A stretch of DNA of 6,735 bases from Pseudomonadota bacterium (GTDB lineage: Bacteria > Pseudomonadota > Gammaproteobacteria > Burkholderiales > Thiobacillaceae), in NCBI GenBank assembly GCA_021802595.1, contig JAJZRT010000207.1, forward strand, positions 1 to 6,735, written 5' to 3'. The notes beneath the pieces are model-generated. The model made no database searches. It was given only the letters and a program-made list of their open reading frames with translations, and was not told where the DNA came from. Below, one piece after another: positions 1,289-6,735 of this stretch (position 1 is the first letter of the stretch; each line of letters begins with the position of its first letter). A program made the translations under genes and the position numbers.

Positions 1289-1660
1289 ATGCTCTACCGC
1301 CTGCTCGCCGATGCCGTCGTACTGCTGCACCTGTCCTTCGTGGCCTTCGTCATGCTGGGCGGGTTTCTCGTGTTGCGCCGGCCCAGACTTGCCTGGCTGC
1401 ACCTGCCGGCAGTGGCGTGGGGGGCGTGGATCGAATTCAGCGGCACCCTCTGTCCCCTCACGCCCCTGGAAAACGCACTGCGCGTCCTCGGCGCCCAAAG
1501 GGACTATGGCGGCGGTTTCGTCGAGCATTATCTCCTCGCCGCCCTCTATCCCGAGGGCCTGACACAGGAAGCGCAATGGCTGCTGGGATTACTGGCATTG
1601 GCCGTCAATGCTCTGGTCTATTGGCGCATCGGGCGGCGGCGTTTCCCGTCTAAGACATAA
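1289..1660 (+). CDS. DUF2784 family membrane protein
   Basis: The protein has 123 residues and is recognisable as DUF2784 from its core: LHLPAVAWGAWIEFSG, then CPLTPLEN, GGFVEHYLL and a YPEGLT segment before the last helix. Hydrophobic segments lie at about residues 7-29, 38-52 and 93-113, which suggests a three-helix inner-membrane protein with a basic C-terminus (WRIGRRRFPSKT). The length is usual for the family, whose function is unknown. Start 1289 gives the typical N-terminus (LYRLLADAVVLLHL), but I see no Shine-Dalgarno sequence. The start lies 14 bases after the hairpin terminator, so expression depends either on read-through or on a promoter I cannot identify. A second terminator begins at its stop codon. 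Confidence 0.9.
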   Translation: MLYRLLADAVVLLHLSFVAFVMLGGFLVLRRPRLAWLHLPAVAWGAWIEFSGTLCPLTPLENALRVLGAQRDYGGGFVEHYLLAALYPEGLTQEAQWLLGLLALAVNALVYWRIGRRRFPSKT

Positions 1661-1714: not shown

Positions 1715-1751
1715 TCATTCCCACTCTATCATAAATGGCGCAGTAAGCGCC
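1715..1751 (-). other. Candidate island attachment site: orphan guaA 3' end
   Basis: Read leftward, 1729-1715 is ATAGAGTGGGAATGA, which encodes I-E-W-E-stop, the C-terminus of GMP synthase (usually P-x-T-I-E-W-E). The codons before it (P-F-M) no longer match GuaA, and no guaA coding sequence lies to the right. An inverted repeat, GGCGC (1737-1741) and GCGCC (1747-1751), lies immediately beside it. The 3' end of guaA is a known integration target for tyrosine-recombinase islands, which leave a copy of the gene end at their far boundary. The orphan fragment followed by a terminator fits that pattern. The other att copy and the integrase are not in the window, so the assignment is inferred. Confidence 0.55.
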
Positions 1752-1788: not shown

Positions 1789-1809
1789 ATACCCTGCTGT
1801 ATACCCTGC
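1789..1809. repeat. Two 9-bp direct repeats, candidate integrase arm sites
   Basis: ATACCCTGC occurs at 1789-1797 and again at 1801-1809, with a 12-base period. On the minus strand this reads GCAGGGTAT twice. From memory, short GGGTAT-type tandem repeats near island ends are typical of P4-like integrase arm-binding sites. They lie about 60 bases inside the guaA-like fragment, on the island side. Confidence 0.45.
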
Positions 1810-1993: not shown

Positions 1994-4021
1994 TCATGCT
2001 GGCTCTGGCGCATCGGCCAACTGTGTAAAGCTGTCTTCAATGAATGCCGGAACTCTTTGTGAAGACAGAAGAATCAGGTACTGCCCTGCACGCGTCATCG
2101 CCATATAGAGCTTCCTGGCATTTTCTTCCACCTCGGCCGCCTGTACCTCCTTGCCGAGGCTTGGAGTGTCACTACCTGAGAGAAGATTCTCCATGCCGAT
2201 CAGAAACACCACGCCAGCCTCCAGGCCGGTGGCAGTTTCGAGATTCGCCAGGCGCAGATAGTCCCGCTCGCATCCCTTCGGCGGCGCCTTGCGGTGTTCC
2301 TTCTTGTTGAGCCACCAGACGCTGTCCGCGCCGAATCGCCTGCACAGCCTGTCATACAGCAAGGCCTTCTGCACATTCTCGCCGTAGATGACCAACAGGT
2401 CGCCCAATGCCATGGTCCGCTCCTCAATATTGGCGGAGAGTTCGTTCACGAGCCGGTCCACCGAGTCCTGCGGCGAGTCGGTATAGACCAGCATCGGTTT
2501 GACACCGGGTTCCATGCCAGAAAGATCGGGCACCAGGAAATCATCCGGATCGCCTTGGGCATACTGCGCGAGAATGCGGTTCGCCGAGGCGAGAATCGCC
2601 TGCGTCGTACGATACGAGCGGCGCAGCTTCTTGGTGCGGCCAGACACATCGAGTCCGACACTCTTCCAGCTGAGCCGGTTCTTCATGAAACCCTGATTGG
2701 GATCGGCGCAAAGAAAAAGGCTGCTCCGCTCGCACATGGCCAGCCGGACCGCCTGAAACCAGGAGGGCGCGAAGAACTGTGCTTCGTCGATCAGGACATG
2801 ATCGTATTTCTCCATGGCCGTCTGATCCGTTGCCTGGCAGATTTCGAGCGGAACCGCACTCCACAGCCGCTGGCCACTCCGGTTGAGCGTGGACGTCACA
2901 GCCTGGAACAACTCCCAGACCGCAGCCCGTTCCTTTGGTTTCAAAGCGAAGCCACGGCCGGCACGATTGGCGTTGAAGTAACGCTCCGCATCGGTAATCA
3001 GCGACTCGTTGATGAAATCGAGCTCCTCGCGCAGGAGTGATTCCGGCTGTCCCAGTTCCGGCCAGCGGGTCCGATAGTGCGCGATCAGTTCTTCTATCTC
3101 GCATGGCGTAGTGGTCAGTTTCAGCGGTTTCTTATAGAGATTCCGCCACTGGCGGTGCGCCCAACCGAAGAAGGTTTCGATCTCCAGATTCCCAGGCAGC
3201 GCGCCCTTGGTGCGAGTCAGTTTCGCTTTGATGTCGGCAACCACCGGCGTGTTGTGGATCAGCACCAGTACTCGCTGATCCGGATACAACTCGGACAGGA
3301 GCTGGGCGCGCGAGAGGGCAATCAGGGTCTTGCCGCTGCCCGCCACCCCGTTCACCAAGCGAATGGAAAGATCCTTTGCCGCTTCGGCCTGTTCCGGGGG
3401 CGGCTCCAAGTCGAGTTTCGCCGCCCATTCCTGCTGGTGATCCAGGAAGAACCGCTGAAGCCTCGCCGAGTTGTCGCGACAAAAATGGCGGCGGGTCGTG
3501 CAGGTGGCGTGAATTTCCGCTTCCGGAAAATAGCGGCTCAGAATGGCCTGCTCCGCCTCGGCGTCGATGGGCTCAAGTAGACGCGGCACCAGCTTGGCGC
3601 CAAGCTCCAGGAACTGGGCCTTGGAGAGCAGACGGATACCGAACCGCGCAAGATGCTGTCCGGCGATCATTCGCACCTCGTCCTGGCTGCATTTCCACAT
3701 CAGGATCAGCTTTCCGAGAGGTGCCCGGCTTGTGCCAGGGAGGGCGGGAAAAGCCTGAAAGTCGGCAAGCAGTTTCTCGAAGGCGGCGCGCGCCTCGTTC
3801 TCGAACAACTGGTCGCCGGCCAGGGCGGAAAACGGCGTGTCGGCGACCGCGATGGCCAGCCAGCCGTTCTTCGGATGTTGGACGAAGAAATCGGGCAGCC
3901 ACTCGCTGCGCCGGATCGGCGTGCGCACCACATGATCGTCATCGAGCGTGCTGAGCGTGCGCTTGATATGGATGCCGCGGGCGCTTACCGCGCCGACCCG
4001 TTCCGGAATGAACGTCGCCAT
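1994..4021 (-). CDS. UvrD-like SF1A helicase with degenerate NERD-like N-terminus
   Basis: The protein has 675 residues from ATG 4021-4019. This start lies 2 bases after the stop of the preceding gene (TAG 4026-4024), with GGAAGG/AGGTGG upstream. A farther in-frame ATG at 4078 would overlap that gene by 55 bases. SF1 motifs in order: Walker A GVAGSGKT (about 225-232), Walker B LIDEAQ (410-415), motif III LCADPNQGF (437-445), motif IV LRRSYRTT (466-473), motif V around NLETATGLEAGVVFLIG (593-609), and motif VI LYMAMTRAGQYLIL (638-651). All key ATPase residues are present, so the motor is probably active on nucleic acid. Residues about 40-59 (EWLPDFFVQHPKNGWLAIAV) resemble the NERD nuclease-fold core, but the expected I-E-V-K reads I-A-V-A. 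It is the last gene of the leftward cluster and is likely translationally coupled to the SF1B helicase gene. Family identity is confident, but the role (defence or repair) is inferred. Confidence 0.9.
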   Translation of the reverse strand: MATFIPERVGAVSARGIHIKRTLSTLDDDHVVRTPIRRSEWLPDFFVQHPKNGWLAIAVADTPFSALAGDQLFENEARAAFEKLLADFQAFPALPGTSRAPLGKLILMWKCSQDEVRMIAGQHLARFGIRLLSKAQFLELGAKLVPRLLEPIDAEAEQAILSRYFPEAEIHATCTTRRHFCRDNSARLQRFFLDHQQEWAAKLDLEPPPEQAEAAKDLSIRLVNGVAGSGKTLIALSRAQLLSELYPDQRVLVLIHNTPVVADIKAKLTRTKGALPGNLEIETFFGWAHRQWRNLYKKPLKLTTTPCEIEELIAHYRTRWPELGQPESLLREELDFINESLITDAERYFNANRAGRGFALKPKERAAVWELFQAVTSTLNRSGQRLWSAVPLEICQATDQTAMEKYDHVLIDEAQFFAPSWFQAVRLAMCERSSLFLCADPNQGFMKNRLSWKSVGLDVSGRTKKLRRSYRTTQAILASANRILAQYAQGDPDDFLVPDLSGMEPGVKPMLVYTDSPQDSVDRLVNELSANIEERTMALGDLLVIYGENVQKALLYDRLCRRFGADSVWWLNKKEHRKAPPKGCERDYLRLANLETATGLEAGVVFLIGMENLLSGSDTPSLGKEVQAAEVEENARKLYMAMTRAGQYLILLSSQRVPAFIEDSFTQLADAPEPA

Positions 4022-4023
4022 GC

Positions 4024-5769
4024 CTACAACGCCACCTTCCGGCATTGGCTGATCATGTCCCGATGCCAGGCCACCCACTGCCGGATCGTCTCGTTACCGT
4101 TGTTGTCCGGAATGTCCCCGATTTCCGGGCCGATGACGATCAGCTTGGTCATCGCCCGCGTGACGGACACGTTGAGCCGCTCGGGCTGGAAGAAGAATTC
4201 GGCGATCGCCGAGAGGAACGCCTCGTCGCCCGTGGCCAGCGACAGAATGATAAGTTCGCGCTCCTGCCCCTGCATCCGCTCCACCGTGTCGGCCACCACC
4301 TGCCGGGCCGCCTCGCGGCCGAAACGTTCTGCCAAGAGCGTGCGTATGGTCCGCCCCTGGGCACGATAGGGCGAAACGATGCCGATCTCACTCATCGGCA
4401 GGCCGCCGGCGGCGATGGCCTCAACCAGGTCCGCCACCAGTTCGGCCTCTTTCCAGTTCTTCGTCCGCGCCGAGGTGTCCGGCGTCGGGATGAAAACCGC
4501 CGGGCTGTCAGCATCAAGCACGGCGGAGAACCGCGCCGGCATGCCGGAAAGCCGAAGTCGCCGTTCCCGGTTCTTCCCGGCCGCCTGCAAGGCACCGCCA
4601 TAGAAGGTCCGGCTCGGCCAGTCGGTCAGCCAGCGGTTCATGCGGTAGGTCTCCTCCAGCATGACCAGGTGCTCGGCCTCGCGCGAGGTCAGGTGGGAAA
4701 AAACCGAATGCGACTCCTTGTCGAGCACGGAGCGAGACAGGAGCACGGGCGGCAACTGCCGTTGGTCGCCAATGAAGATGAAGCGTTTGCCCTTGCGCAT
4801 GGCCATCAGCGCCAGCGGCACAGTGATCTGGCTGGCCTCGTCGAAAAGAATGGTGTCGAAGCCGTAGTTTTCGAGGCGGGACGTGCAGGTGGCGAACGGC
4901 GTAGCTCCGACCACATAGCCGTTGGTGGGGCGATCCTCCCAGCCGTCGAGCCCTTCGAAGTTCGGGATCGCGTCATCGAGCCCCTTGCGTTGCGTGGCGC
5001 GGCCAACCTTCACCACCGGCACACCCTGGACGTGAATCTTGTTCAGGGCGTTGTTGATAGCCATGTGGGTGTGCGAGGTCATCAGAATCCGCTCGCCGCG
5101 TTCCACGGCCAGCCGGGCGATCAGCGAGAGCACGCGGGTCTTGCCGGTTCCGGGCGGCCCCTGGATGCATGCTATATGCTGCGCGCCATGCGCCCAGCCG
5201 ACCGCTTCCGCCTGCTTGTCGTTGCAGCCTTCGGCCTGAGCGATGCGAATCGCTTCCGCCATCGCACCCTCGTCGAACCCGATGTCCAACTGGCCGGACA
5301 GCAGCGGCATCAGGGTTTCCCTGCCGGCGGCGGAAGTAGCGATCTCTTCCAGGGTCTGCCTGTAGTAGCCGGTGAGGTCCATCGCGTCGGGGTCGACGTA
5401 GCAGGTCCCGCCCATGTAGTCGTTAAAGGCCGCAACGGCGCGTATTCCTCGCAGCAGCCAGCGATTGTCTTCCTCCAGCTCGAACGAGAGTCCCCGGCAA
5501 AGCGGTTCCAGTGGATTGCCCTGATGCAGGCAGAGCAGATCGCCTTCCCGAAAGCGCGATTCGGTATCGTCGGGATAGGCCCACAGCGTCGTCGGCTCAG
5601 GACCGCGTTCAATGCGGACGAAGCCCTGTGTAATGCCCTTCTGGAGCTTGTCCGACAAGGGACGCTCCCAGGTGGTAAAGAGCTGATGATTGGCGGTCTG
5701 CTGCTCGTCATGAACGAGCTGATACAAATCGGAGAGAAGACCGGCGGTATTGGACATGCGTTTTCCCAT
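4024..5769 (-). CDS. Upf1/DNA2-like SF1B helicase (AAA_11/AAA_12 type)
   Basis: The protein has 581 residues from ATG 5769-5767. This start follows the HNH stop by 13 bases, whereas the longest frame (from 5877) would overlap the HNH gene with non-conserved sequence. ATG 5757 (MSNTAGLL) is an equally possible start, because neither has a strong ribosome site. About 200 N-terminal residues of unrecognised sequence (YQLVHDEQQTANHQLFTTWE) precede the motor. Motor motifs: Walker A GPPGTGKT (204-211), Ia TSHTHMAINNAL (about 232-241), Walker B FDEAS (309-313), III GDQRQLPPV (334-342), the YRMN segment (375-378), V ADTVERMQGQERELIILS (about 493-510), and VI RLNVSVTRAMTKLIVIG (531-547). These are the hallmarks of the Upf1/Nam7/DNA2 group, which unwinds RNA or DNA 5' to 3'. 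All catalytic residues appear present. Co-transcription with two nuclease-like genes and another helicase suggests a multi-subunit nucleic-acid-processing system. Confidence 0.9.
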   Translation of the reverse strand: MGKRMSNTAGLLSDLYQLVHDEQQTANHQLFTTWERPLSDKLQKGITQGFVRIERGPEPTTLWAYPDDTESRFREGDLLCLHQGNPLEPLCRGLSFELEEDNRWLLRGIRAVAAFNDYMGGTCYVDPDAMDLTGYYRQTLEEIATSAAGRETLMPLLSGQLDIGFDEGAMAEAIRIAQAEGCNDKQAEAVGWAHGAQHIACIQGPPGTGKTRVLSLIARLAVERGERILMTSHTHMAINNALNKIHVQGVPVVKVGRATQRKGLDDAIPNFEGLDGWEDRPTNGYVVGATPFATCTSRLENYGFDTILFDEASQITVPLALMAMRKGKRFIFIGDQRQLPPVLLSRSVLDKESHSVFSHLTSREAEHLVMLEETYRMNRWLTDWPSRTFYGGALQAAGKNRERRLRLSGMPARFSAVLDADSPAVFIPTPDTSARTKNWKEAELVADLVEAIAAGGLPMSEIGIVSPYRAQGRTIRTLLAERFGREAARQVVADTVERMQGQERELIILSLATGDEAFLSAIAEFFFQPERLNVSVTRAMTKLIVIGPEIGDIPDNNGNETIRQWVAWHRDMISQCRKVAL

Positions 5770-5782
5770 TGCAGCGGCCTGC

Positions 5783-6112
5783 TTACCCCGCCTGTAATAC
5801 CTTCTCATGGTACCAGGCAAGGTGGATCGCGTGCTCCGGCGCCTGCCAGCGCAGCCGGATATCCGCCGTGAGGCCAAGTTTCGCGGGGGCTTCCGGGGCC
5901 AGTCGTGGCGAGATCAGCGGTACCCCCGAATCATCGAAGCTGATGAGGCCCCGGTCGAAGAGCGCGTCGAAATTGGCGATCAGCAGAAAGCCATTGAACA
6001 CGTCGAGCCGTTCCGCATCTGCGTCGCAGTCGGCCCAGGGTTTTGCATGGCTGGACCGCAGCACTTCAGGCATATTGCCCCCAGTCACCGTGCAAGCGCC
6101 CCAGTCGTCCAT
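5783..6112 (-). CDS. HNH endonuclease domain protein, N-terminally truncated
   Basis: This 109-residue frame is nearly all HNH_2-type domain: C7-T-V-T-G, EVLRSSHAKPW (H22), ERLDVFNGFLL (N40), then FDALFDRGLISFDDSG and LISPRL, ending with HLAWYHEKV. H22 and N40 fit the H-N-H core. The third position, often H before the aspartate of the LFD segment, is N47 here, a variant that also occurs in ββα-metal nucleases. Full family members usually carry a long N-terminal region. Here the family-like reading continues upstream of ATG 6112 (G-T-F-R-T-A-L) to an in-frame TAA at 6136-6134, where relatives commonly have Q, so CAA to TAA is plausible. It may be a remnant or a minimal standalone nuclease. Only 68 bases separate it from the preceding gene's stop, so no room is left for the missing region. 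Confidence 0.75.
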   Translation of the reverse strand: MDDWGACTVTGGNMPEVLRSSHAKPWADCDADAERLDVFNGFLLIANFDALFDRGLISFDDSGVPLISPRLAPEAPAKLGLTADIRLRWQAPEHAIHLAWYHEKVLQAG

Positions 6113-6180: not shown

Positions 6181-6735
6181 CTACGCAGCTGAAGCCGAAA
6201 ACTCAAGGAACGCATGATGCAAACGTATTGGCATTGACTGCTCAGGACGTGCGTGCAAGCTCTGCCAAAACGGTCCGTCACTAACGCCGCTTGGGTCGAG
6301 GCGATCTGCTGGACGCGAAACCCGTTTCAAGTGAGCATTTACGCCATCGGCACATTCTGGCGGCGAACCGGAGAGCACGTAACCCACCATGAAGCCAACT
6401 GCATGGTTCTCCCCGTACTTCTCCTGGATGAATCGATCCATGCCCTCGACTACATATTCGCGGCATAAGTGGGTATCCAACCCGGCGATTCGTTTGCATT
6501 CGATGATCGCATGCGGGTCATGCTCGCCGAAGCGCAAAAAGATTTCGACAAACGCCAGCGGGATGTCGGTACGCCCGTCCGGCAGCACCACGCTGCTCTT
6601 GGATCGTGACTCAGTACCCGGCAGTACCCAAATCTGCTTATATGGCGAGTCCTTTGGAGCTTCTTTCTGCACACGGCGCATTCCGTCGCGCAAGCGCTCC
6701 GTTATTAGAACCTCGCCAGCATTGGCATTTATATC
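6181..6735 (-). CDS. PD-(D/E)XK-like nuclease domain protein, partial (5' end off the window)
   Basis: The frame is open from the window edge to a TAG at 6183-6181, giving 184 visible residues. TTG 6693 and ATG 6681 are possible internal starts, but coding-like sequence (DINANAGEVLITERLRDGMR) precedes them, so the true start is probably beyond 6735. The key signal is G-R-T-D57-I followed about 22 residues later by I-I-E79-C-K81, the D...ExK core of a restriction-endonuclease fold. After it come YVVEGMDRFIQEKYG, GFMVGYVLSG and the final IRLHHAFLEF, a conserved arrangement I associate with uncharacterised nuclease-like proteins near defence genes. It is the first visible gene of the leftward cluster, 68 bases before the HNH frame. 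Base composition looks lower in GC than the helicase genes. Nuclease activity is inferred from the motif. Confidence 0.7.
   Translation of the reverse strand, partial: DINANAGEVLITERLRDGMRRVQKEAPKDSPYKQIWVLPGTESRSKSSVVLPDGRTDIPLAFVEIFLRFGEHDPHAIIECKRIAGLDTHLCREYVVEGMDRFIQEKYGENHAVGFMVGYVLSGSPPECADGVNAHLKRVSRPADRLDPSGVSDGPFWQSLHARPEQSMPIRLHHAFLEFSASAA

Follow-up and report, generated by a model that had tools for sequence, protein, structure and literature searches.

A probable attR of a guaA island, recognised by its att core and paired arm repeats without its integrase

We analysed a window of 6,735 nucleotides (the whole stretch of DNA considered here), part of an 11,051-base contig, and found that its minus-strand positions 1806-1715 are, with high probability, the attR, or integrase-distal end, of an island inserted into the guaA 3' end by a P4-type tyrosine integrase resembling those of epsilon15 and GIsul2. 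We see the core, both arm repeats and their spacing directly in the window, and the same layout is found in guaA-type attPs and in whole guaA islands. The window island's own integrase would be of the epsilon15/GIsul2 kind, an intact guaA should lie at the far (attL) side, and the genes to the right (two helicases and an HNH remnant) are presumably island cargo. The kind is already known, because guaA is an established landing site: experiments show both excision and integration of GIsul2 at the 3' end of that gene (PMC9376610), phage ZX5 inserts there with a 17-base core, attgagtgggaatgatt, described as previously shown for phiV10 and epsilon15 too (PMC9782041), and the integrases of epsilon15, CMGI-3 and relatives are reported to form one cluster whose target is the guaA 3' flank (PMC8138268). 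The preliminary description of this DNA had likewise called the guaA 3' end a known hotspot for tyrosine-recombinase islands. The junction in the window is very probably a genuine attR of that known kind, and its features, with the chromosomal flank on its left, are as follows.

1289-1660, plus strand: gene for a DUF2784 protein, outside the island (PF10861, 130 bits)
1660-1692: intrinsic terminator with a 14-pair stem and A and T tracts, in the chromosomal flank
1715-1729, minus strand: copy of the guaA 3' end, the att core region (ATAGAGTGGGAATGA, I-E-W-E-stop)
1719-1726, minus strand: recombination core GAGTGGGA, matching the core that GIsul2 att sites are reported to have in common (PMC9376610)
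1737-1751: small 5-pair hairpin, GGCGC/GCGCC, between the core and the arm sites (hairpin scan)
1789-1794, minus strand: putative proximal P-arm integrase-type site GGGTAT, its GGTA 67 bases before the core
1801-1806, minus strand: putative distal P-arm integrase-type site GGGTAT, its GGTA 79 bases before the core

The orphan guaA end is short and distinctive. As first described, fifteen minus-strand bases encode I-E-W-E-stop and no GuaA coding sequence continues upstream of minus 1729 in the window translation: the preceding codons read A-P-F-M, and all six translated guaA ends have PPAT at that place. A search with ATHGARTGGGARTGA that allowed up to two mismatches returned a single match in the window, which is exact, against a shuffle mean of 0.07. 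The exact 12-mer GAGTGGGAATGA had no copy in 168 DUF2784 loci (1.52 Mb, both strands), and the 8-mer GAGTGGGA had 42 copies in the same loci. Identity of the att core with the guaA 3' end (GAGTGGGA plus stop), one mark of a guaA island, is present in the window. The isoleucine codon is ATA, where most guaA ends that we read have ATC or ATT (L082 is an exception); L290 and L274 show the same codon at their element-side cores, so the ATA of the window may be of element origin.

Upstream of the GAGTGGGA core, two minus-strand copies of GGGTAT start at 1806 and 1794, and it is these arm repeats at 1789-1806 that supply most of the weight for reading the junction as an attR. The interval first proposed for the boundary, 1715-1751, includes the small hairpin and ends before them. 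Paired arm sites at a fixed P-side distance, which are 79 and 67 bases in the window, form a second mark of guaA islands, one that we derived in the present analysis rather than took from print; a literature search not aimed at that spacing rule did not come upon it. The pair was first spotted by eye in the window, so a test on outside sequences was needed. We scanned IMG/VR with a tighter pattern, and L263 was the sole stretch matched: it has the window's own arm letters, the exact spacing and a guaA-type core, directly followed by an integrase of the P4 type that has an arm-binding domain. Protein similarity to the L263 integrase then led to epsilon15, phiV10, Tyrion, SPN1S and others, from which we took six phages (fetched out of 30 listed among 428 matching records) and 13 viral integrase loci, four of them without a core where the contig ends and one, L277, a guaA-side junction.

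The arm pair stood at 79/67 in 13 of the 14 attPs with a readable P arm (six phages and eight viral records, several of them near-copies of each other) and at 78/66 in the remaining one. In the epsilon15 record itself, GTGACGGTAT at the outer arm position carries the annotation 'integrase'. The stretch that separates the arms from the core is only loosely alike, with 19-27 of 53 positions shared between the window and the compared elements; for the weakest match, UViG_2574180442, 208 of 2000 shuffles score as well. A search by DNA similarity with positions 1700-2000 against E. coli genomes, plasmids and phages gave no match. As an observation apart, the att/integrase region of the virus record L266 is flanked by two open frames, which we take to be reverse-transcriptase-like, perhaps part of a diversity-generating system.

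We then looked at guaA in bacterial genomes. The sampled family is that of G668 and G672 (Thauera), presumably Rhodocyclaceae, and we took it as the likely host family; the names of several homologues of a 137-aa gene at 821-1234 point to Rhodocyclaceae. An integrase 39-63% identical to the phage-record integrase P0361 lies within 1.5 kb of guaA in 16 of 60 loci, which were taken up to 20 kb downstream and picked mostly for long contigs, and hence are not a random sample. Three of six guaA loci fetched earlier have an integrase as well. In three of the 60 (L290, L305 and L315), a second guaA end with an arm pair lies 14.8-18.9 kb from guaA, with arm distances at this distal end of 78-80 and 66-68 bases. 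Across 3.39 Mb of comparison DNA (both strands, some stretches counted twice), the arm layout was present to within one base at four of 181 copies of GAGTGGGA, and all four sit in the guaA islands of L290, L305 and L315. Since the arm distances are those of 13 of 14 attPs and the layout occurs at so few cores, each in a guaA island, we read 1715-1806 as an attR. The proposed island boundary at a guaA-type site is thereby borne out by the P-arm geometry of guaA-type integrase attPs, by the integrases beside guaA and by the three whole islands.

Several features of these islands were seen in passing. One of the four copies of the layout, 0.9 kb from guaA, is an additional L315 junction; it stands before the integrase gene, in the stretch 0-2450 from the guaA end, and two guaA-type junctions so close together suggest a tandem insertion or what is left of an older island. 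Wherever we read an element on either side of its core, the main arm letter (C, T or G before GGTA) agreed between the two, and the window's letter is G. In a tree of 28 of 29 chosen integrases (L315 was left out on a motif test), those with the same arm letter tend to group together; two C-type rows, however, sit next to the T-type ones, and the letter does not define clades strictly. On the P' side, arm sites are near-fixed in many of 19 attP/attL loci of guaA elements, at about +134, +146, +182 (reversed), +208 and +280 from the guaA end, and mostly share their first letter with the P side.

The alternative that survives best is that the junction is the attR of such an element at a secondary site other than guaA, with the 12-base match supplied by the element's own attP core; we regard this as unlikely, though the least so of the alternatives. 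The attP cores themselves contain GAGTGGGAATGA, stop codon included, so the 15 bases alone are no proof that guaA was the target, and the stop after the core gives no preference for guaA since the attPs have it too. The flank also leaves room for such a site, since DUF2784 was not a neighbour of guaA in any relative examined: no DUF2784 gene stood in the 20 kb that follow guaA in 66 loci (some stretches shorter than 20 kb, all from distant relatives), and no GuaA in 204 DUF2784 stretches (not all distinct places, again all from distant relatives). The native order first proposed, with guaA facing DUF2784, was thus seen in none of them, which at such distances speaks neither for nor against it. 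A closer relative was sought by DUF2784 among genomes sampled from G001's class, order and family, from the G668 family and from two genera; the best DUF2784 identity in the searched genomes was 67% among the matches listed, and two DUF2784 proteins outside them, P0002 and P0003, stand at 84-85%. In all seven genomes that match both, the 137-aa gene and DUF2784 are on different contigs. Rare low-specificity insertion is described, as is GIsul2 on plasmids at unrelated sites; against a secondary site, however, the same source calls GIsul2 integration away from att sites rare (PMC9376610), and the reported target of the epsilon15 integrase cluster is the guaA 3' flank (PMC8138268). All 19 integrase-adjacent junctions that we found lie at guaA; having been retrieved with guaA as the bait, they are no test of secondary sites.

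A chance match, in which a random I-E-W-E-stop happens to stand near two unrelated repeats, is very improbable. The motifs are short, and when we scanned IMG/VR with a wide-gap pattern built from the window, 11 of the 12 matched stretches looked like chance and were set aside as such, with other gaps and no guaA-like end after the core; the twelfth was L263. Both arm distances are nevertheless those of epsilon15-type attPs, which were retrieved via the integrase protein and not via the arm pattern, and the layout at the 181 cores occurs in guaA islands only. It is just as hard to believe that guaA was deleted save for its last codons with no island involved, even with merely 15 bases of guaA left, since what precedes the core is not decayed guaA but P-arm DNA bearing integrase-type sites, and a search of 180 genomes of the likely host family recovered guaA in 167 at the threshold used; we dropped the idea of a decayed guaA at 1715-1729 because of the arm sites upstream.

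With the attR of a guaA island as the preferred reading, the chromosome begins to the left of the core. The terminator at 1660-1692 folds into a hairpin of 14 pairs with no mismatch, with a folding z of -5.6. The bidirectional terminator of the preliminary description stands as to its hairpin; the terminator scan reports it on the minus strand only, and we read it as acting both ways from inspection of its A and T tracts. To the right of the core lies the candidate cargo:

1730-1993: end stretch of the island, no gene listed, 47% G+C (base composition)
1994-4021, minus strand: UvrD/Rep-type SF1 helicase (profile matches), start codon inferred
4024-5757, minus strand: Upf1/IGHMBP2-type SF1 helicase with AAA_11/AAA_12, start inferred from the L162 relative
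5783-6112, minus strand: C-terminal piece of an HNH_2 nuclease (PF13391; PADLOC HNH profile positions 168-232 of 286)
6181-6735, minus strand: open frame of 184 aa that runs off the window, no family match

The first 264 bases right of the core have a G+C of 0.47, against 0.60-0.64 in the neighbouring genes. Beyond them, UvrD-type and Upf1-type SF1 helicases stand back to back at 1994-5757, and just upstream of these the HNH_2 piece, which has no N-terminal part of its family, is probably a remnant. The UvrD-type helicase belongs to a 90%-identity cluster found on 11 contigs; it was absent from the 66 guaA-downstream stretches, and a scan of viral contigs gave no relative. Among 297 genomes of the likely host family, two have the helicase pair, each in a setting of its own, between housekeeping-type genes in L162 and beside a coupling-protein-like gene in L163 (both by ORF reading), and neither of these two relatives has it at guaA. 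The 'defence-like cluster' first seen to the right of the fragment remains a fair description of these genes, but no named defence system, Mokosh included, was matched in full: the best MkoA stretch covers profile positions 775-1074 of 1112, short of full length, and the PLuB helicase scored 199 bits against a cut-off of 999. The pair may be an undescribed defence or mobile module. More speculatively, the island could carry a two-helicase undescribed defence module while the arm letter serves as a barcode by which orphan ends could be matched to the integrases they lack; the window's end would then go with a G-type integrase such as the one in UViG_3300038704.

By analogy with GIsul2 and ZX5, the integrase would recognise the core together with the two arm sites, which read GGGTAT here, and strand exchange would take place within GAGTGGGA, between the attP core and the final guaA codons. 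At the attL side, beside the integrase gene, guaA would then regain a complete end from the core that the element brings, and the 15-base orphan guaA end would be left at the attR, between the island and the flank with the terminator and DUF2784 gene. The end of a guaA-type island without its integrase, normally hard to spot, becomes recognisable from about 90 bases by a core and two arm repeats at nearly fixed distances, and this layout could assign short metagenome contigs to guaA islands with guaA and integrase unseen.

Among known systems, L290 is an island at guaA that we take to be GIsul2-like from its gene order and its three cores, a number also described for GIsul2; like the window, its distal end has the arm pair, at 78/66, but with the letters TGGTA where the window has GGGTA. 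GIsul2 itself has the core GAGTGGGA at the guaA 3' end, as in the window (PMC9376610), though its cargo differs from the window's. The phages epsilon15, phiV10, Tyrion, SPN1S and BUCT711 share with the window the core GAGTGGGAATGA and the arm pair at 79/67, and for epsilon15 and phiV10, as for ZX5, the guaA 3' end is the reported target (PMC9782041). The arm sites of the epsilon15 group read CGGTA where the window has GGGTA, and its members are phages, whereas the window has helicases and no recognised phage gene. The virus record IMGVR_UViG_3300038704_000019 (84 kb) has GGGTA arms at 79/67 and a guaA-type core, as the window does, with a P4-type integrase (PF13356 and PF00589) directly after the core; that record is an attP, and the window is an integrated end.
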